A DNA stretch of 20,572 nt, taken from IMG/VR virus record IMGVR_UViG_3300023184_000611, positions 1-20,572 of that record; one strand, 5' to 3'. The translations under genes were made by a program, and so were the position numbers. The notes beneath the pieces were generated by a model. That model was not told where the DNA came from. It was given only the letters and a program-made list of their open reading frames with translations, and did no database searches. Below, piece after piece: positions 9,831-19,526 of the stretch. The DNA is from a virus. The number at the start of each line of letters is the position of its first letter. Position 1 is the first letter of the stretch.

Positions 9831-10934
9831 ATGGCAGCGCAATTAAAAATTAATGCTACTTCTCCTGTTTCTCTTAAGCAGATGTCTGGGACTGATTATG
9901 ACTACACAACATATCAGATTTTAAATACATTTGCTGCTTCAGATACAGGTGTAGGCACAGTTTCTGTAAATCCTGCATCTACTACAGGATTAACTTCTGT
10001 AGGAACATTTACTGATACTTATTATGATGTTGGCGCACCAGGAACACATCCCGTAGGCACAACAGTAACTTCGACAACTTATACTTTTTATCAAGATCTA
10101 CAATCTGCATCTGAAACTTCATTAGTTCGTCCTATAGAATATATTTCAGGTCTTAAAGAACAAACAGATACAAATCTTAATGCTGATGCTATCACAGTTG
10201 CAACTGCAAATCTTGTTGCAAACGGACAAGGTTCATATGCACTAACACCATCATCACCTACTGGCGGAACATGGGTAGCAAAGTCAACAATATCTAACTT
10301 TACATATACTGGTGCTTCCAATGTCACATATCTCTGGAGAAAAACTGCGCCTGCTTCTGTTCCTTCAGCTTTACGTCCTTTAAAGATAAATTCTACTTCA
10401 CCCGTTTCTGTTAAAGAAATGTCTGATGCTGAAATTCAAACATTAACTGCACGCTTTAGAAACCAAATTGTTTCTACAGGTATTGGTAAATACGCAGTGC
10501 AAACATCTGCACCAGTTTCAGGTGGAACATGGGTAACACAAGGTGCTGCATTTAGTGATACTAGAAATACAATATCTGCTATAGGTTATACAGGATCATA
10601 TTCAGGTGGCTATACAGGATCATATTCTGGAACATATCAAACAACATTTACTGGTACGTATACAGGTTACTTCACAGGATCATATTCTGGAGCGTATGCT
10701 GGATCATATAGAACATACTATGTTGGATATGCTGGTCCTTTATATACAGGGTATTATACAGGGTTTTATTCTGGTACATACAGTAGAGGATTTACAGGTG
10801 GATATGTTGGTTCCTTTACAGGATCATATTCTGGAACGTATACAGGTTCATATTCTGGAACATATACGGGTAATACATTAGATGCAACAACAACAACTAT
10901 TTCAACAGTATCGTTATGGATGAGGACAGCTTAA
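9831..10934 (+). CDS. Structural protein with duplicated modules and Tyr/Gly/Ser tail
   Basis: A 367-residue protein of a type found beside fibre genes in marine T4-like phages. Motif A (LKIN-[AS]-TSPVS-[LV]-K-[QE]-MS) occurs at 5-18 and 184-197. Motif B (G-x-G-x-YA, then S-x-P, then GGTWV) occurs at 132-149 and 217-235. The protein is therefore an A-B unit present twice, although the first copy carries an extra stretch with TYTFYQ (83-88). Residues 252-348 are Tyr/Gly/Ser/Thr-rich repeats of about four residues (YTGS, YSGT). The end, TISTVSLWMRTA, is not repetitive. The purine-rich AAGAGAAA lies shortly before the ATG. The repeat tail suggests a surface-exposed extension or adhesin, but no direct function is known. 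Confidence 0.7.
   Translation: MAAQLKINATSPVSLKQMSGTDYDYTTYQILNTFAASDTGVGTVSVNPASTTGLTSVGTFTDTYYDVGAPGTHPVGTTVTSTTYTFYQDLQSASETSLVRPIEYISGLKEQTDTNLNADAITVATANLVANGQGSYALTPSSPTGGTWVAKSTISNFTYTGASNVTYLWRKTAPASVPSALRPLKINSTSPVSVKEMSDAEIQTLTARFRNQIVSTGIGKYAVQTSAPVSGGTWVTQGAAFSDTRNTISAIGYTGSYSGGYTGSYSGTYQTTFTGTYTGYFTGSYSGAYAGSYRTYYVGYAGPLYTGYYTGFYSGTYSRGFTGGYVGSFTGSYSGTYTGSYSGTYTGNTLDATTTTISTVSLWMRTA
10584..10874 (+). repeat. Tyr-Gly-Ser/Thr tetrapeptide repeat tract
   Basis: About 24 near-tetrapeptide units of form [YF]-[TSA]-G-[STY], encoded by variants of tatacaggatcatattctgg. The blocks around 10590-10645, 10675-10705 and 10815-10870 are nearly the same at DNA level, which allows slippage or recombination. 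The repeat also leaves another frame open, so longer frames read here are artefacts. Confidence 0.85.
10921..10926 (+). promoter_or_regulatory. Ribosome binding site that decides the next start
   Basis: TGAGGA lies 10 bases before the ATG at 10937. An earlier in-frame ATG at 10916 would put this site inside the gene and overlap the upstream gene, so 10937 is preferred. Confidence 0.6.
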
Positions 10935-11394: not shown

Positions 11395-12150
11395 ATGAAT
11401 GGTTATGTGTATATTGCCTCGCTATCGAAGGCATATTATAAAGCAGCAGTCAATTCTGCTATTTCATTGCGGGATCATTATCCAGAAGCAAACATTACTT
11501 TGTTTACTCACGAAGTATTTTTGCAAGATAATGACCGCAAATTTTTTAATAATATCATCACAAATATTCCGGTCCACAAACGAGCAAAGATGTGGGGTAT
11601 GGCAAAGACGCCATATGACAAGACACTTTACTTGGACAGTGATACAGAAATTAGATCAGAACGTATTAAAGATGTATTTGACATCTTAGACAAAAATGAT
11701 ATTATGTTTACAAAGATTGTTCCTCATGTTTCTAACACTAGACGCATTGATGATAATAATGATTTACAATATCATGGGGGAGTAATCCTATACAACAATA
11801 AGAAACCAACAATCAAATTGATCAATGAATGGTATGAATTATACGCAGAACAAGTAAAATGTTCTTGGAGTAAATCACAATTTGCTCAGTATGATCCTAA
11901 AATGAAACCATGGGATCAATTCACAATTTGGTATCTGTTACAACAAAAAGAATACAAAAAAATAAAACATGACTTTTTCCCAAATGGCGGAACAGAATGG
12001 AATTTTATTTACCTATTAGAGGAAAATAAGGAAAACAACGTTCCTTACAAAGAACTTGAACAAATCATATATCATTATACTATACCAGGAGAAAAAGTCT
12101 ATGTTGGTAATATCCAAACTCCACCCGGATCTATTACAGATTTTAACTGA
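11395..12150 (+). CDS. DxD glycosyltransferase (GT-A fold, GT8-like)
   Basis: A 251-residue protein with the layout of a GT-A glycosyltransferase. The N-terminal strand and helix (YVYIASLSKAYYKAAVNSAI) begin a nucleotide-sugar binding half. The metal-binding DxD appears as KTLYLDSDTEI, with DSD at 81-83. A later YHGGVILYNN segment (near 126-135) and WDQFTIWYLLQQ (near 184-195) match the acceptor-side pattern of such enzymes. It probably transfers a sugar from a nucleotide sugar in the cytoplasm; donor and acceptor are unknown. No clear ribosome binding site lies in the 17-base gap before the ATG. It is unlike the three paralogous enzymes downstream apart from general fold. Its last 50 bases overlap the next gene. 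Confidence 0.72.
   Translation: MNGYVYIASLSKAYYKAAVNSAISLRDHYPEANITLFTHEVFLQDNDRKFFNNIITNIPVHKRAKMWGMAKTPYDKTLYLDSDTEIRSERIKDVFDILDKNDIMFTKIVPHVSNTRRIDDNNDLQYHGGVILYNNKKPTIKLINEWYELYAEQVKCSWSKSQFAQYDPKMKPWDQFTIWYLLQQKEYKKIKHDFFPNGGTEWNFIYLLEENKENNVPYKELEQIIYHYTIPGEKVYVGNIQTPPGSITDFN
12087..12092 (+). promoter_or_regulatory. Ribosome binding site inside the glycosyltransferase gene
   Basis: AGGAGA lies 8 bases before the ATG at 12101. It is the best ribosome binding site near this gene and supports 12101 over the in-frame ATG at 12056. It sits in the coding sequence of the preceding gene. Confidence 0.65.
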
Positions 12151-12757
12151 GTTTAGCGATTGGTTTTTTGCACGAGATAATTCAGACCTAGAAGCATGTA
12201 TTGGTCTCAATCCTTCTATGAAAAAAGTAGTAATAAAGGATATGGCAGAAAAAGCAACTTCTATGGCATATCTTCAAGAAGCATTGAAGGATCCAAACAA
12301 ATACGGATTCCCACACAATTCATGGGGAATTGAACTTGCACATGACCAAGCATATTATGATAACAAAGAAGTAAAACAGCGCTCACATGACACCAATAAT
12401 AAATTAATGGATTTCTTTGGCGCAAGAAACAATGCGCTTCAGATGTATTATCCTGCAGGGGGATATATCGGATGGCATCACAACGGAAATGCTCCTGGAT
12501 ACAATATTGTTCTCTCATGCAATCCGGGTGCTGATGGCGAGTTTGAAAATTGGGACCACAACAACAATAAGTTAAACGTATTCAAAGATCAGTCAGGCTG
12601 GAACTGTAAGGTTGGATATTTTGGTGATCAGTGGAAGGAACCTGAGAAACTTTATTGGCATTGTGCGAGAACTCGCACACCACGGTTGACTATGAGTTAT
12701 GTTATCTATGATAAGAATTTATGGGAAGATATGGTTGCAGACATCAACTGTGATTGA
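12101..12757 (+). CDS. 2-oxoglutarate/Fe(II) oxygenase-like protein
   Basis: A 218-residue protein resembling the small 2OG-Fe(II) oxygenases common in cyanophages. The core is MYYPAGGYIGWHHNGNAPGY (115-134), then GWNCKVGYFGD (166-176), then YWHCARTRTPRLTMSYV (185-201). H126/H127 with N128 and the distal H187 are the likely metal site, and R195 with S199 fits the 2-oxoglutarate carboxylate site. The usual H-x-D carboxylate is Asn here (H126-H-N128), so the ligand set is unusual. The start at 12101 is chosen for the AGGAGA just before it, giving a 50-base overlap with the glycosyltransferase. It may hydroxylate a protein, sugar or lipid; the substrate is unknown. Its last 14 bases overlap the end of the convergent minus-strand gene. 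Confidence 0.7.
   Translation: MLVISKLHPDLLQILTEFSDWFFARDNSDLEACIGLNPSMKKVVIKDMAEKATSMAYLQEALKDPNKYGFPHNSWGIELAHDQAYYDNKEVKQRSHDTNNKLMDFFGARNNALQMYYPAGGYIGWHHNGNAPGYNIVLSCNPGADGEFENWDHNNNKLNVFKDQSGWNCKVGYFGDQWKEPEKLYWHCARTRTPRLTMSYVIYDKNLWEDMVADINCD
12662..12679. other. GC-rich inverted repeat within the oxygenase gene
   Basis: TGTGCGAG and CTCGCACA are separated by AA, giving an 8-base inverted repeat; as RNA the likely stem is 7 pairs with a GAAC loop. It encodes the conserved C188-A-R-T-R-T193. No T-run follows on either strand, so it does not look like a terminator. Confidence 0.5.
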
Positions 12758-13364
12758 CCTTATGATTGATATAGATGCAAGGATCAACAACTAAGTAGGT
12801 TGAACTATTTGTAAAATTATGTGGGATGATTCTGCGGTCGAGGTATCTGCAGTTTCCCCACATGCTAATAAATGTATCATCACCAAAATGTTCTGCAGTA
12901 TGCTTGAACGGATCAAGTAAAAGCATTTCTGTTAAGTAATCAAAATTATTTCCTTGCCAGAGCATTACAGATGAATTGCCGTATCCTGTGAAAGCATCTT
13001 TATCCTTATTCAATTCAAAAAACTTTTTGTTTTTCCATACAGTATCTACAACATAAAGATCATCATGTGGGTCTTTAATCAAGAAATCAATGTTATCTGT
13101 AAACAAAACATCTAAGTCAAAGTATAGATTGATTCCATCACTAGATATATCTTTTGAGAAAATGAGAACTTTGTTCCACCAGGTATCTAGTTCATAGTGA
13201 TTGATATCAATAAATGTAATTGGAAAATCTGTCTTCTGTTTTGTATCCGTAAGACAAATGAACTTAAATTCATGAGATAAATACTTATTACACATGTTGT
13301 AGAGATTCTCAACATGCTTTATATTATAGCTTGGTTTGACTAATACACAGTAGATATTGATCAT
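12744..13364 (-). CDS. Minus-strand DLD glycosyltransferase, paralogue of the next gene
   Basis: The only minus-strand gene in the window. The chosen start at 13364 gives 206 residues beginning MINIYCVLVKPSYN; a 12-residue longer version exists, but this start aligns with the paralogues. HVENLYNMCNKYLSHEFKFICLTD (16-40, in part) aligns with YVNRLYANLKNAYTGEFNF in the next gene. The DxD is YFDLDVLF (DLD 83-85). GYGNSSVMLWQ (127-137) corresponds to WVNSSFVTW there. It is therefore a GT-A type sugar transferase, probably cytoplasmic, with unknown substrates. Its start codon and the plus-strand start at 13363 share the bases CATG (13362-13365), and its end overlaps the oxygenase gene by 14 bases. 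No strong ribosome binding site or late promoter is seen upstream. Confidence 0.7.
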   Translation of the reverse strand: MINIYCVLVKPSYNIKHVENLYNMCNKYLSHEFKFICLTDTKQKTDFPITFIDINHYELDTWWNKVLIFSKDISSDGINLYFDLDVLFTDNIDFLIKDPHDDLYVVDTVWKNKKFFELNKDKDAFTGYGNSSVMLWQGNNFDYLTEMLLLDPFKHTAEHFGDDTFISMWGNCRYLDRRIIPHNFTNSSTYLVVDPCIYINHKVNHS

Positions 13365-14079
13365 GGTCGTTAATTTCATCACTTTAAAATGGGGAACCAA
13401 ATATGGTCCCGAGTATGTTAATCGATTATACGCAAATCTAAAAAATGCGTATACCGGCGAGTTTAACTTCTATTGTTTCACTGACAATGCAGTAGGCATA
13501 AATACTGAAATTCATATTAGAGATATTCAAGAATTAAGACCCGATCCTACACAATGTTTTACTGTAGAAAAAATATTCCTATTTGACCCAGACATAATTA
13601 AGATGTCTGGCAATTTTGTGTTACTTGATTTAGACATACTCATCATTAATGATTTATATCCATATCTTTCTTCATATAATTTCACTGAAGGTCGGTTTAT
13701 CAAGAATTATTGGAGTAATGTGACTGCAGGAAGTTTATTATCTAAATTTGGATGGAATTGGGTAAATAGTTCTTTTGTAACATGGAAAGATAATCAACTA
13801 AAACATATCATAGATTTTTACTATGATAATAAACAAATAATAGAATTAAAATTTGGTGACTTAGATTTCTTTTTATTTCAGGGTATGAGAAATGAATTGC
13901 ACTATCATCCAGAAAAAATAGTATATTCATACTGTGATGGCGCAGATGATGAAGATAAAGATGCTTATGCTTATAGAAAAGATTATTCAATCGTCTTATA
14001 CAATACATCCCATGGGAGGGGAGTAGAACTACATGAAGCTAGAGATTGGTCAAGGGATATTTGGACGAGATTTGGATGA
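13363..14079 (+). CDS. DLD glycosyltransferase, first tandem copy
   Basis: 238 residues from the ATG at 13363, chosen because MVVNFITLKWGTKYGPEYVN aligns from the first residue with the second copy at 14667. A TTG six bases earlier is less likely. About 28 of the first 42 residues are identical between the copies. The metal-binding motif is VLLDLDILI (DLD 89-91). WVNSSFVTW (133-141) and YNTSHGRGVELHEARDW (213-229) are shared family blocks. It is likely a GT-A sugar transferase acting in the cytoplasm on a glycan or lipid; donor and acceptor are unknown. Its 3' end overlaps the next gene by 47 bases in the +1 frame, the same layout as in the second copy. No good ribosome binding site precedes the ATG. 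Confidence 0.74.
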   Translation: MVVNFITLKWGTKYGPEYVNRLYANLKNAYTGEFNFYCFTDNAVGINTEIHIRDIQELRPDPTQCFTVEKIFLFDPDIIKMSGNFVLLDLDILIINDLYPYLSSYNFTEGRFIKNYWSNVTAGSLLSKFGWNWVNSSFVTWKDNQLKHIIDFYYDNKQIIELKFGDLDFFLFQGMRNELHYHPEKIVYSYCDGADDEDKDAYAYRKDYSIVLYNTSHGRGVELHEARDWSRDIWTRFG

Positions 14080-14677
14080 AGTCTATGGCGACCTATTTGA
14101 AAAAATTCGTATACCATCAATAGCAAAAGCGTTATATATTTTAATAAGAACAACTAGCAGATCAGTAGTAGCTGCAAAAGATACTCACTGTGTTGATATT
14201 ATTTTAAAAAATACTACTAATTTAAAAAAGGTTGCCGTGATAGGAGCAAAACTTCCTATTACCTATATGATAAGAATTCAAAATCGTTATCCAGAGGTAA
14301 AATTTATAACTATCAATGATAGTGAAATGATGGTGATGAGTGAAGAGTATCTTAAAGGACTATTCAACTATACAAATTATAATATAAATCCTATTTTCAA
14401 TGATCTTTCAGAACACATTAAAGATTGTGATCTTGTGATATATCCAGAAACAGAATTATTAGTTCCTTTTAAATACCTTAGATATAAACATACAATGCCA
14501 TATTTTTGTGCTAACTTTATCTATTATCCAAACATAGTAAATACAAATGAGATATATAGTGAAGAAGATTTATTAGAAATTTGTGAAATGAAAAAGCCAA
14601 TTGTTTGTGGGTCAAGAAGGGTAATATTTTCTGGAAACTCTAAAAAATATTATTATGCATTAGGCTATGATAGTTAA
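14033..14677 (+). CDS. Unknown protein paired with glycosyltransferase, first copy
   Basis: 214 residues; I do not recognise a family. The pattern suggests an alpha/beta Rossmann-like core: LKKVAVIGAKLPITYMI (64-80), VKFITIND (89-96), then IKDCDLVIYPETELLVPFKY (129-148). These blocks align in order with KKVCLIS and KCDTVILHDFQFMAPFDVLP in the gene at 15328-15783. The only good start is the ATG at 14033, which lies in the codons for the ELHE block of the upstream glycosyltransferase. The related gene starts at the equivalent ATG. The overlap suggests coupled translation and a joint function. There is no signal peptide or membrane segment. A SAM- or nucleotide-binding role is possible, but no glycine-rich loop is clear. 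It overlaps the next gene by 11 bases. Confidence 0.6.
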   Translation: MKLEIGQGIFGRDLDEVYGDLFEKIRIPSIAKALYILIRTTSRSVVAAKDTHCVDIILKNTTNLKKVAVIGAKLPITYMIRIQNRYPEVKFITINDSEMMVMSEEYLKGLFNYTNYNINPIFNDLSEHIKDCDLVIYPETELLVPFKYLRYKHTMPYFCANFIYYPNIVNTNEIYSEEDLLEICEMKKPIVCGSRRVIFSGNSKKYYYALGYDS

Positions 14678-15371
14678 ATTTATTACATTAAAATGGGGCA
14701 CAAAATATAGTCCTAAATATGTCAATAGGTTGTATAAATCTATTAAAAAAACATATTCAGGTGACTTTAAATTTTATTGCTATACAGATGATGATACCTA
14801 TTTAGATAGTTCTATCTGTGTAGGAAACATAACAGATTTGCCACACTTTGATACCAATGTATTTACTCTAGTAAAAATGGATCTATTCACACATCTTCCT
14901 TTTGATGGTCCTTATGCATTTTTAGATTTAGACGTTTTAATTTTAAAAGATTTAAAACCTTACTTTGATGAGTATCAATTTAAAGAACCTAGAATAGGAT
15001 ACTGCTATTGGACAGATCCTAACAGAGTATACAATTCATACCATAAAGGTGATTGTTATGTGAACAGTTCTTTCTTGACTTGGGACAAAGATCAATTCAA
15101 TTATGTCTGTAATATATACGAAGAAAACAAAACGTTGATAAACTATAAATTTAAATCATTTGACAAATTTTTGTTTTACTTTTGCAAGTTAAATTATCAT
15201 CCAAAAGGTATTATGTATAGCTATAACTTTGGTGCAGAATATCCTGATAACATAGAAAAACAAAAATTTTTAGAAGATCAACATATAGCAATCTTTAATA
15301 CATCGAATGAAAGAGGAATAGAATTGCATGATTGCTCTGGGTGGGCCAAAAGATATTGGGAATGTTTTTAA
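14667..15371 (+). CDS. DLD glycosyltransferase, second tandem copy
   Basis: 234 residues starting MIVKFITLKWGTKYSPKYVN, a close paralogue of the preceding enzyme over its whole length. DLD lies at 87-89 (AFLDLDVLIL); VNSSFLTW is at 132-139; the C-terminal block is FNTSNERGIELHDCSGW (210-226). The region between the blocks has diverged strongly (FDGPYAF against MSGNFVL; CYWTDPNRVYNSY against NYWSNVTAGSL), as expected if acceptor specificity changed. The ATG lies within the end of the previous gene, an 11-base overlap. It is probably a cytoplasmic sugar transferase acting with its neighbours on one glycan; the substrate is unknown. Confidence 0.74.
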   Translation: MIVKFITLKWGTKYSPKYVNRLYKSIKKTYSGDFKFYCYTDDDTYLDSSICVGNITDLPHFDTNVFTLVKMDLFTHLPFDGPYAFLDLDVLILKDLKPYFDEYQFKEPRIGYCYWTDPNRVYNSYHKGDCYVNSSFLTWDKDQFNYVCNIYEENKTLINYKFKSFDKFLFYFCKLNYHPKGIMYSYNFGAEYPDNIEKQKFLEDQHIAIFNTSNERGIELHDCSGWAKRYWECF

Positions 15372-15784: not shown

Positions 15785-17230
15785 ATGATATTTTATTTGT
15801 TATGGTTACTTGCGGGAACTTTCTATGGGTTCATCATAGGATTGATTCCAGTTGCTGGCGCAACAACAGCTCTTATTACTATTTATTCTTTCATAGATGT
15901 ATTCAGAGCAGACCCTTATACTTTAGTTGTATTCACAACAGCAATTGTTGTCTCATCGACTATAGGTGATTCTTTCTCGTCAGTCATGCTTAACGTCCCA
16001 GGTGCAGGTGGGTCTGCTGCTACTATGGTCGACGGGTTCCCATTGGCGAAGAAAGGCGAAGGTGCAAGGGCACTGTCTGCTGCTATCACAACATCCGCAA
16101 TCAATGGATTCATCTGGGGAATTCTTGTCTTTTCGTTCCTGCCATTCTATGCATCGGCAGTCATGTATTTTGGAATCCCAGAACAGCTTGCTTTCATGTT
16201 TTTGGCATTTGCGTCTGTCTGTTTTGTTTCAAATCACTATTGGGCAAGAGGTATCTTTAGTTTAGGATTAGGTATTTTCTTAGGACTCATTGGACAGGAT
16301 CCTCACACAGGTTCTGCACGACTGACGGGCGGATGGGATTACTTAGGCAACGGAATCCAAATCATCCCGATCCTTGCCGGAGTCCTTGCTTTCCCAGAAC
16401 TTATTGAACTATACATAAACAAGTATGAGACAGTAAAGTTCGAGATAGAGAACTATAAATCTCAAGTCGTTCAAGGTATCAAAGATTCATTCATCCATTG
16501 GAAAGAATCGCTCGCAGGAGGAGCAATTGGAGCTTTTATCGGAATACTCCCTGGAATTGGTGGCGCTATTGCTGATTGGGTGTCTTACAGTTTCACTGTG
16601 GGATTAAACAAGAACGAAACCTTTGGTAACGGAAACATCAAAGGTGTTATAGGATGTGAAGGAGCAAACAACTCACAGAAAGCAACAGGTTATATTCCAA
16701 CAGTATTGTTTGGTATACCAGCAGCACCTTTCGAAGTTGTCATTATGAGTTTATTTGTCTTAGTAGGCATAGAACTCGGCACACCGGCATTGTTGAAAGA
16801 TACAATGTTCTTTGACACTTTACAGTATTCATATCAAGCATCCTTATTTCTAACCTACATCATTAGTATAATCACTATTCGATACATTGTCAAGATATTT
16901 CTTATCCCAATCGATATTTGGTTCTGGTCACTTGTCGCTTTAATTGTTTGGAGCTGTGTTCAGTATACAGGATACGCTGAAGATTACTTGATGATAATTC
17001 TATGCACATTGCTAGGACTTTCTTTAAAATATCTCAAGATGAGTCGTGCAGCTTTCATCATAGGATTTGTCTTGAGTGACAGAATCGAAAAATTGTTATA
17101 TCAATACTTGACATTATTTGATTGGTCTGATATTATAATGAGACCAGTGAGTGTATCATTGCTTGTTGCAACAGCCGGCGCAATGATATACGGCATTTTC
17201 TACAGTAAAATAAAGGTGAACTACACATGA
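15785..17230 (+). CDS. tctA: TctA-type large permease of tripartite tricarboxylate transporter
   Basis: A 481-residue membrane protein of the TctA family, the large permease that works with a TctC binding protein and a small TctB subunit to import tri- or dicarboxylates across the inner membrane. The two halves carry the related loops GLIPVAGATTA (19-29) and GILPGIGGAIADW (253-265). Other family marks are NVPGAGGSAATMVDGFPLAKKGEGARAL (within 70-97), a central PELIELY segment, EGANN (292-296) and PTVLFGIPAAP (305-315). About a dozen hydrophobic segments can be seen. The N-terminus is roughly 20 residues shorter than in usual TctA and no better upstream start exists. The ATG follows the previous stop by one base with a poor ribosome binding site. 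GC content is higher than in the glycosyltransferase genes. No TctB is seen nearby. Confidence 0.88.
   Translation: MIFYLLWLLAGTFYGFIIGLIPVAGATTALITIYSFIDVFRADPYTLVVFTTAIVVSSTIGDSFSSVMLNVPGAGGSAATMVDGFPLAKKGEGARALSAAITTSAINGFIWGILVFSFLPFYASAVMYFGIPEQLAFMFLAFASVCFVSNHYWARGIFSLGLGIFLGLIGQDPHTGSARLTGGWDYLGNGIQIIPILAGVLAFPELIELYINKYETVKFEIENYKSQVVQGIKDSFIHWKESLAGGAIGAFIGILPGIGGAIADWVSYSFTVGLNKNETFGNGNIKGVIGCEGANNSQKATGYIPTVLFGIPAAPFEVVIMSLFVLVGIELGTPALLKDTMFFDTLQYSYQASLFLTYIISIITIRYIVKIFLIPIDIWFWSLVALIVWSCVQYTGYAEDYLMIILCTLLGLSLKYLKMSRAAFIIGFVLSDRIEKLLYQYLTLFDWSDIIMRPVSVSLLVATAGAMIYGIFYSKIKVNYT
17212..17218 (+). promoter_or_regulatory. Ribosome binding site of the TctC-like gene
   Basis: AAAGGTG lies 8 bases before the ATG at 17227, inside the end of the permease gene. 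It suggests the binding protein is made efficiently in its own right as well as by coupling through the ATGA overlap. Confidence 0.55.
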
Positions 17231-18288
17231 GAATTTTAGCATCAATCTTTGCCCTTATGTTGTCTGCAACAGCAGCAATGGCTGATTATCGTCTAATTGT
17301 TCCACAGAGTCCAGGTGCCGGAACATCTGTATGGGCTGCGATCTTCGCAAAGCATATGTCTGAAGCAATGAAAGAGAAGTTTATTGTTGAGCATATCCCA
17401 GGTATCAATGATATCCCAGGATTCAACAAGTTCCATAATGAACTGCGCTTTGATGACAAGACAATCATGGTTGCTCATGGTGGCAATGCTGAATCTTTCT
17501 TGGTTGATAGGGTCGACTACAACTATGCAGATTATGAACCAATTGCGACTATGAGCCTTAATACCATTGTCACAAGAAACAAGACAGTTGATATTGAGAA
17601 AGACAAGATTCGTATGGCACACAACTCAGGCGTCAATCCTGACATGATGGCAATCATTATGTTGGTCTGTGGTCCTCAGAAAGACGTGACTGCATATCTA
17701 GATTGTTATAAGAAACGTATTATCTATGTTAAAGGTATGCCAGGATCAGAATCACGCCTTGCTTTTCTGCGAGGTGAGTTGAATACTATCCGTGAGACCT
17801 ATGTCGCACATGAGAAATTCTTTGCAGAAAAAATTCGTTTCAATGAAGTGATTGATTGGTTCAATCATGGAGTCTATGACTTTAACACAGGCAAGATTGT
17901 AGATGATCATAACTTTAAGAATGTAAAGACATTTGCTCAGGTATACAAAGATCGATGGAAAGTCGAACCGTCAGGTGATTTCTATGAAGCCTATGCTTTG
18001 ATGAAGAATTACCGTGATGTTTTGCAGAAAGCATTGTTTGTAAACAAAGGCAATCCTAATGCAGAAAAACTGCGCCAAGGTGTTGCATACATGTTGACTA
18101 ACCTAGAAGCAAAGAAAGCATTTGAAGCAGATATTGGCGATTATGATTGGTTTGTTGGCAAAGATTTGACTTTAGTCATGGGTAAGTTAAAGACACAAAT
18201 CACTGAAAAGAAATTAAAGACATTGGTCAAGATCTCCAATGAAGGATTCGGATTTGAAACAGTTTATAAACCAGAGCTTTTAAAATGA
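17227..18288 (+). CDS. tctC: TctC-like periplasmic substrate-binding protein
   Basis: 353 residues with a clear Sec signal peptide: MRI, then the hydrophobic LASIFALMLSATA, with likely cleavage after AMA at residue 19. The mature start, DYRLIVPQSPGAGTSVWAAI, follows the TctC/Bug pattern of a first beta strand ending in VP, a glycine-containing loop and a helix. FIVEHIPG (52-59) matches the second strand. It should capture a carboxylate in the periplasm and deliver it to the permease encoded directly upstream; the genes overlap as ATGA. It is slightly longer than usual (about 320-330 residues) and the rest is diverged, so the ligand cannot be read from sequence. A phage-encoded exported binding protein implies a Gram-negative host and action before lysis. 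Confidence 0.75.
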   Translation: MRILASIFALMLSATAAMADYRLIVPQSPGAGTSVWAAIFAKHMSEAMKEKFIVEHIPGINDIPGFNKFHNELRFDDKTIMVAHGGNAESFLVDRVDYNYADYEPIATMSLNTIVTRNKTVDIEKDKIRMAHNSGVNPDMMAIIMLVCGPQKDVTAYLDCYKKRIIYVKGMPGSESRLAFLRGELNTIRETYVAHEKFFAEKIRFNEVIDWFNHGVYDFNTGKIVDDHNFKNVKTFAQVYKDRWKVEPSGDFYEAYALMKNYRDVLQKALFVNKGNPNAEKLRQGVAYMLTNLEAKKAFEADIGDYDWFVGKDLTLVMGKLKTQITEKKLKTLVKISNEGFGFETVYKPELLK

Positions 18289-18896
18289 GTGAGCGTAAAT
18301 TTAAGTATATCTTTGTCACAGGTGCACCGGGTTCCAAATGGAGCTCGGTCGCCCGAACAATGTGGCATAGTCCTGACGTAGATCATTCTGACAATAAGAA
18401 TGAATACAAAGAAGGTAATGTGAGACATCAAGGCGCCTATTGGGGTCCTGGTATGGAATATGGTAATGACTTTAATGCAATGCATCTTTTCTCTAAAGAA
18501 GAACTTGAGAAAGAATTTGATAAACCATTTTCAGGCAAAGGTGTGCGGATCATCAAGTCACATGATTTTGCACACAATCTAGAATTCATTAGGGAAACAT
18601 GGCCTGAATGTCCTATTGTTATGTGTTTGAGAGGCACAGATGCATGTCTTGGATGGTGGGTTAAAGCAGGTGGGTTCGATATTACCTATCCTAACTATTC
18701 AGAATACAAAAACTTTAAATTGATGGGCATGGCAATTGAAAATCAAAATAAGGGTATTCACGACTTCCTTGATATTAAACCATCATACTACACACCATCG
18801 AGTTATAACTTGAGCAATTTGCTTGGCATTGAATACAGTAAGATAGAACAAGATTTTAGCAAAGACGATATAGACGTCTATTTGAACTGGAGTTAA
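18285..18896 (+). CDS. Sulfotransferase-like P-loop protein
   Basis: 203 residues starting in an ATGA overlap with the binding protein gene. The N-terminal strand and loop YIFVTGAPGSKWSS (8-21) resembles the 5'-phosphosulfate loop of PAPS-dependent sulfotransferases. RIIKSHDF (88-95) and CPIVMCLRGTDACLGWW (109-125) match the core strands and the 3'-phosphate region, where R117 would be the key Arg. Similar proteins occur in cyanophages, often labelled sulfotransferase. If active it would move sulfate from PAPS to a hydroxyl on a glycan, lipid or small molecule. A kinase-like P-loop protein is the alternative, since the loop lacks a standard GKS/T. The C-terminus (YLNWS) is short and without further domains. 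Confidence 0.55.
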   Translation: MSERKFKYIFVTGAPGSKWSSVARTMWHSPDVDHSDNKNEYKEGNVRHQGAYWGPGMEYGNDFNAMHLFSKEELEKEFDKPFSGKGVRIIKSHDFAHNLEFIRETWPECPIVMCLRGTDACLGWWVKAGGFDITYPNYSEYKNFKLMGMAIENQNKGIHDFLDIKPSYYTPSSYNLSNLLGIEYSKIEQDFSKDDIDVYLNWS

Positions 18897-18899
18897 ATT

Positions 18900-19526
18900 A
18901 TGAAAATCTATGGATTAATCAAGGAAGCATCTGATGAATTGTTGTGGAACTTTACCCATGATGTTCATAAATTGATTCTTGACAAATACTTTAGCACCTA
19001 TTGGAGAGGTGACACAAAGGACTTTAGTCATACAGGACATGAGGTTCTTTCTAGAAAAGTAAAAGAACACAACCCAAAGAATATCTTAGATGTAGGTTGT
19101 GGGTATAATGACTATAAGAAATTCTTTGATGGATATGAGTTTGTAGGCATTGATCCTTATAATGATAAGGCAGATATCAAGCAAGGAATCTATGAGTATT
19201 ATCAAGAAAATAAAGAAAAGCAATTCGATGCAATCCTTGCTTTGGGTTCTATCAACTTTGGACCTTATGACAAGATTTTGCAAGAAGTAGAATGGATCGA
19301 TAGATTGACAGCACCCGGTGGTCGTTCTTACTGGCGTGTCAATCCAGGAATTCCTCATAAGACACTGAAAGAATTTCCTCTCGTTGACTTGATTGAATTC
19401 TTTGATTGGACAAAAGAATTTATTGAAAAACTTGCAGAAGTTTTTGGGTATGAGATTGAAGAATATGCTGAGGAAACAAATCATAACGGAGACAAGCGTA
19501 TATATTTCTGCTTTCATAAACTATAA
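18900..19526 (+). CDS. Class I SAM-dependent methyltransferase
   Basis: 208 residues. Motif I is NILDVGCGYNDY (61-72); the acidic end of strand 2 is FVGIDPY (81-87, D85 binding the ribose); the strand 4 region is FDAILALGSINFGP (109-122); and the post-core loop is RLTAPGGRSYWRVNPG (135-150). This is a complete small Rossmann methyltransferase. The substrate is unknown; by position it may act on the same glycan or product as the transferases upstream, or on a virion component. A GGAG lies 7 bases before the ATG. The stop codon is inside the late promoter box at 19522-19529, so this gene closes the cargo block. Confidence 0.75.
   Translation: MKIYGLIKEASDELLWNFTHDVHKLILDKYFSTYWRGDTKDFSHTGHEVLSRKVKEHNPKNILDVGCGYNDYKKFFDGYEFVGIDPYNDKADIKQGIYEYYQENKEKQFDAILALGSINFGPYDKILQEVEWIDRLTAPGGRSYWRVNPGIPHKTLKEFPLVDLIEFFDWTKEFIEKLAEVFGYEIEEYAEETNHNGDKRIYFCFHKL

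Follow-up and report, generated by a model that had tools for sequence, protein, structure and literature searches.

Does a phage that carries a TctA permease and a TctC-like binding protein, with no TctB, bring a working transporter into the cell it infects? The question is posed by IMG/VR record IMGVR_UViG_3300023184_000611, a metagenomic fragment that we analysed as a single window covering all of its 20,572 bp. T4-like tail and baseplate genes lie around the pair, and a PHROG scan of the window identified a baseplate wedge protein (phrog_438, E = 1.7e-87). The gene order is T4-like tail genes, fibre-like genes, glycosyltransferase-like genes, then tctA and the tctC-like gene (Table 1). The original prediction, made from this sequence alone, had described such a phage setting and an ATGA overlap between the two genes; both descriptions were accurate, with exact coordinates. 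It had also proposed that the phage either borrows TctB from its host or uses a two-part system. We favour the second branch and put a probability of about 0.6 on the reading that the pair is a TctB-free, two-part importer of a small carboxylate, a phage-specialised version of the tripartite tricarboxylate transporter (TTT) working in the infected cell.

Table 1. Coordinates of the features discussed (window positions unless a record is given).
Feature	Position	Strand	Remarks
TctA-type permease, 481 aa	15785..17230	+	PF01970; TctA domain only, without fused TctB domain
Phage-type TctC/Bug solute-binding protein, 353 aa (predicted)	17227..18288	+	Start overlaps tctA as ATGA; signal peptide; AF2/Foldseek/hhalign
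Signal peptide of TctC-like protein, MRILASIFALMLSATAAMA	17227..17283	+	Read from sequence
VP-loop of binding protein, VPQSPGAGTSVW, residues 25–36	17299..17334	+	Alignment of 35 viral members
Downstream neighbour	18285..18896	+	Start overlaps tctC; no Pfam match; P-loop/sulfotransferase-type look by eye
Fibre-like protein	9831..10934		
TGSYSG-type repeats in fibre-like protein	10530..10900		
HHN...H...R pattern protein	12056..12757		No significant Pfam match
Three similar glycosyltransferase-like genes	12744..15371		Includes a minus-strand gene (phrog_1962, E = 2.7e-8)
TctB-like shadow ORF	19086..19517	antisense	Rejected
Inserts of ~240 aa between tctA and tctC	L012:9273..9998; L016:2898..3629; L098:11449..12204; L131:11443..12159; L132:2109..2810; L139:11569..12276		
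Exported beta-barrel gene between tctA and tctC	L017:9433..9987; L022:9383..9970; L095:11436..12023		
Phage-type TctA–TctC pair, Omnitrophota MAG	L076:3168..5675		
One TctA flanked by two TctC-like genes	L137:6214..9891		
TctB, then bacterial-type TctA (ESANN)	L150:4986..6919		Record G051

The gene directly downstream of the pair has a relative near the pair in twenty-nine of fifty-one lineages, as judged by neighbourhood clustering, and is probably on the same transcript. The T4-type late promoter TATAAATA occurs at three sites in the window, which is not above chance, and at none upstream of tctA; scans for sigma-70 promoters and terminators gave chance-level results. Elsewhere in the window, the glycosyltransferase-like genes diverge much faster among related contigs than tctA and tctC do, one protein has a pattern that recalls 2OG-Fe(II) oxygenases, and a fibre-like protein contains short repeats.

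The first gene of the pair encodes a complete TctA-family permease. Its product matches the whole of PF01970 (positions 1–423 of 423; 288.5 bits against a cut-off of 28.9, E = 9.5e-86), and both glycine motifs and EGANN (residues 292–296) are present. An alignment of twenty-four viral TctA sequences, combined with a motif check, shows G11, G15, G19, P22, G25, G245–G260 and EGANN to be invariant. The family is characterized by a motif found in both TM1 and TM7, G-Hy3-G-Hy3-G-Hy2-P-G-Hy-G (PMC5812351). Each copy of this duplicated glycine motif was found in forty-four of the forty-five viral lineages tested, with P-x-[AS]-G in place of P-G-Hy-G in the viral TM1. The gene is under strong purifying selection (dN/dS 0.05–0.09 against relatives 87–96 per cent identical). 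A Foldseek comparison of the TctA model with the PDB gave nothing significant, and a sequence search of solved structures returned no TctA relative.

The second protein had been described as exported and TctC-like. It begins with a classical signal peptide, with cleavage before D, and a hydrophobic N-terminal leader is common to an alignment of thirty-five such proteins. It has no Pfam, PHROG or NCBIfam match. The cut-off of PF03401 was not reached: the window protein gave no match, and three of the thirty-five members scored E ≤ 0.1, the best at 0.008. Because no model in these collections reaches the phage binding protein, annotation pipelines overlook it. When a profile of the thirty-five viral relatives was compared with the PDB, Bug/TctC proteins ranked first, though weakly (BugD, E = 0.0012). 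The AlphaFold (AF2) model (pLDDT 93.8, pTM 0.90) has the two-domain Bug fold. All of its top seventeen Foldseek matches and top eleven VIA matches are TTT binding proteins (Z 18.8–22.6 over ~270 residues; the next unrelated family has Z 13.8), and the model therefore identifies the product as a highly diverged TctC. The solved structures that share the fold at these Z scores (BugD, Bug27, MatC, AdpC, TphC) are only ~12–17 per cent identical to the phage protein, which is ~30–50 residues longer, lacks the motif Phe and has mostly lost the Asp. Proteins of uncultured Caudovirales labelled ‘PBP2_Bug_TTT’ in UniProt and BFVD also place the Bug fold in phages, but at 13–14 per cent identity they form a different subfamily. 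Selection on the tctC-like gene is likewise strongly purifying (dN/dS 0.10–0.17 over the same range of relatives).

The VP-loop lies at the start of the mature protein, as predicted. P26, Q27, G30, G32, T33 and W36 are invariant in the thirty-five viral members, and the pattern PQxxGxGT[STD]xW retains the family motif's glycines and its Thr. The TctC/Bug motif is P-F-x-A-G-G-x-x-D (PMC8556258), which the viral consensus P-Q-x-x-G-x-G-T-S does not match. Gln replaces the conserved Phe in all forty-eight motif-matched lineages and in two more read by eye, and the Asp is mostly Ser, being left in only four lineages. In a Vibrio TTT-C, alanine in place of the motif Phe (F19A), Thr or Asp abolished binding (PMC13390454). 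Since the Phe and mostly the Asp are replaced in the phage protein, its binding pocket has changed, and its ligand could therefore differ from known carboxylates.

We then asked how far the pair extends beyond this record. Scanning 2.9 million viral contigs gave seventy proteins related to the binding protein, and TctA relatives turned up on 543 contigs. Clustering at 85 per cent identity gave fifty-one lineages, one of which is an Omnitrophota MAG, and forty-five of them carry both genes. The pair is no lone curiosity but a conserved module. TctC lies within 100 bp downstream of TctA in thirty-two of the forty-five and overlaps it by 68 bp in one more; in eleven the two are further apart, mostly with one to three readable genes between them, and one has the reverse order. 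The remaining six lineages comprise one with TctA at a contig end, four with TctC on fragments of 5–13 kb, and one (L066, a 71 kb record, and L070, of 205 kb) with a TctC-like gene and no detectable TctA. In a further arrangement, one TctA is flanked by two TctC-like genes. Among cultured phages (INPHARED) we found seven remote TctA matches (25–34 per cent) and no TctC match. Judged by the baseplate protein, the nearest cultured relatives are phages of Sinorhizobium, Prochlorococcus, Methylophilales and Caulobacter.

In a maximum-likelihood tree of TctA set against cellular copies, the forty-four phage-type sequences, one from the Omnitrophota MAG and the others from forty-three viral lineages, group together in a single clade (support 100/100). 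This clade sits on a long branch nearest to fusion-type TctA, though its exact sister is uncertain given the long branches and an outgroup that is limited to plasmids and mostly alphaproteobacterial. The best plasmid-borne relatives are ~30–34 per cent identical to phage TctA, and many are proteins of 644–682 aa that end in a TctB domain, encoded beside a long TctC of ~360 aa. The closest cellular relatives that we found are thus alphaproteobacterial TctA–TctB fusions, an arrangement that is rare in the family, where the function of TctB is unknown (review PMC5812351).

Profile comparisons give the same picture for both proteins. The viral TctA profile scores 329–360 bits on fusion-type bacterial TctA versus 210–234 on canonical TctA, and the viral TctC profile 63–100 bits on long TctC versus ~20 on canonical TctC. 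With hhalign, viral TctC matches bacterial long TctC at 99.9 per cent (E = 7.8e-32, 306 columns) and canonical TctC at 92.9 per cent (171 columns); the homology to long TctC spans the whole mature phage protein. The closest subfamily for both proteins therefore consists of fusion loci on plasmids of Palleronia, Sagittula, Rhizobium rosettiformans, Gemmobacter and Thalassospira (L153–L155, L157, L159), which share the W of the VP-loop, a TctC colinear over those 306 columns, and a TctC gene near TctA. They differ from the phage system in several ways. Full-length phage TctA has 441–509 aa and no C-terminal TctB domain, ending where the fused TctB part would start; phage TctC is downstream of TctA, whereas it is upstream in most fusion-type loci; the VP-loop Phe has become Gln; and TctC identity is 20 per cent. 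Canonical TctCBA systems (the Salmonella citrate transporter; Azospirillum L158, Sinorhizobium L160) also combine a TctA permease with a periplasmic binding protein, but they have a separate tctB gene and are more distant from the phage proteins than the fusion type is. Judging from these sequence comparisons, the phage module most likely descends from a fusion-type TTT with a TctC of ~360 residues by loss of the TctB part.

Three-part TTT systems have TctB, free or fused, and the phage system has neither. As predicted, the window contains no sense-strand ORF with the size and membrane pattern of TctB; the only TctB-like candidate is an antisense shadow ORF, which we rejected. No recurrent sense-strand TctB-like ORF was found within 6 kb of TctA across forty-six lineages. 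PF07331 (TctB) matched one of fifty-nine viral records, none of which is known to be complete; as a positive control, the search found the fused TctB domains in eight of eight plasmids. The exception is G051, where tctB directly precedes a second, bacterial-type TctA without an adjacent TctC, ~45 kb from the phage-type pair. G051 is a 182 kb record with T4 Gp23, and genes that look by eye like radical-SAM and 2OG-oxygenase genes lie near this second TTT locus.

The absence of tctB leaves room for the other branch of the original prediction, in which the pair is an incomplete system that needs TctB from the host to function. We consider this unlikely, though it is the alternative that survives best. 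Genes for tctB are common in Proteobacteria, including several on the plasmids examined, and the small membrane subunit is essential in studied TRAP systems, which casts doubt on TctB-free transport (review PMC5812351). However, in the nearest cellular relatives TctA and TctB form one fused protein, and a free TctB to match is therefore not to be expected; archaeal TctA homologues occur without TctB (PMC5812351). The Omnitrophota MAG with the pair also has no detectable TctB, though a MAG can be incomplete. Since the nearest cellular TctA carries a fused TctB, phage TctA ends before that part, and the MAG pair stands without detectable TctB, we favour a two-part system over a borrowed subunit; carboxylate uptake itself remains the likely role, as first proposed.

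That MAG holds the single cellular copy of the pair among 84,980 genomes, in a scan seeded by two short motifs that may miss more distant cellular relatives. Searching 285 Omnitrophota genomes with a profile returned only the same copy and one marginal partial match. We rejected the idea that its contig is a binned phage, as its NifU, Na/Ca exchanger, GAF-HD and metallophosphatase genes read as cellular. The phage-type pair contains the only TctA in this MAG. The copy may have passed from virus to bacterium, or it may belong to a donor group that has so far gone unsampled. We are evenly divided on a broader evolutionary reading, in which the phage system is a virus-spread bipartite TTT that arose from a TctA–TctB fusion, lost TctB permanently, works as a TctA–TctC pair, and has been transferred at least once to a bacterial chromosome (Omnitrophota).

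How would a two-part importer operate? We infer uptake, its substrate and its timing. The phage would make TctA and TctC in an infected Gram-negative cell, where the host Sec machinery would export TctC to the periplasm and insert TctA in the inner membrane. TctC would trap a small di- or tricarboxylate and pass it to TctA, which would import it by ion symport without TctB. Import could then feed the supply of carbon, or of a 2-oxoglutarate-type cofactor, during phage production. Three related lineages have an exported beta-barrel gene between tctA and tctC; in the two tested, Pfam matched Porin_4 (E = 1.1e-9) in one and OMP_b-brl in the other. Such an insert fits an import route across both membranes.

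A different kind of role, which we think improbable, is that the pair is in practice no importer and alters the cell surface or periplasm, for example by shutting out a rival phage that makes use of the host's TTT permease, or by acting as a sensor, as orphan Bug proteins can. Some phages do keep TctC alone, and signalling roles have been discussed for bacterial orphan binding proteins (PMC11452294). Yet the two genes stay paired and are both under selection, the permease motifs are intact, and the porin insertions fit transport.

As for the substrate, the nearest bacterial operons suggest a tricarboxylate, because they carry genes annotated as TcuA tricarballylate dehydrogenase and 4-oxalomesaconate tautomerase. 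A rather poorer candidate is 2-oxoglutarate or a close dicarboxylate, supplying phage Fe(II)/2-oxoglutarate oxygenases. It is raised because a possible oxygenase sits between tctA and tctC: a protein of ~240 aa, found exactly there in six lineages spread over two distinct TctA clades, has the pattern HID...PHATCNMG...R (HxD...H...R) and looks oxygenase-like by eye. Against this, the insert has no Pfam, PHROG or PDB family match, its identity as an oxygenase is putative, and C6 tricarboxylates are what the nearest bacterial operons suggest.

Bacterial contamination or a chimeric contig, a danger for any 20.6 kb metagenomic fragment, has a negligible chance of explaining the pair, as the independent contigs L003 and L004 match the window at the DNA level through the fibre, glycosyltransferase, TctA and TctC genes, and the pair occurs in dozens of other phage contigs, with the T4 major capsid protein Gp23 on thirteen of the forty-four long pair-carrying records. 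The pair is a conserved phage module, neither a chimera nor a one-off.

Phages carry phosphate-binding proteins and some permeases. Two earlier reports touch on the genes described here: tctA was recorded by domain match on SUP05 viral contigs (eLife 2014, PMC4164917; repeated in a review), and, in an OMZ myovirus, the surroundings of norB/nirK were said in passing to include ‘tricarboxylate transport’ genes (ISME J 2020, PMC8115048). The main texts of both concern marine viral contigs with such genes and give no account of the pair or of its spread and phylogeny, nor of the absence of TctB. Our literature search, which covered the main texts of open-access journal papers, returned no description of a TctA–TctC pair, its spread or the missing TctB, and queries on K07793, ‘tricarboxylic transport’ and solute-binding proteins encoded by phages came back empty. 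As far as these papers show, a conserved, phage-specific organic-acid importer pair across dozens of T4-like lineages has not been described before.

The pair suggests that these phages nourish the cell they infect and that the transporter can do without its third component. If it works without TctB, it would show that TctB can be dispensed with, and would offer a natural test of TctB’s role, an open question in the TTT field. If the reading of a virus-spread bipartite TTT is true, the pair would be the minimal TTT that nature provides and a means of nutrient uptake widespread among phages.
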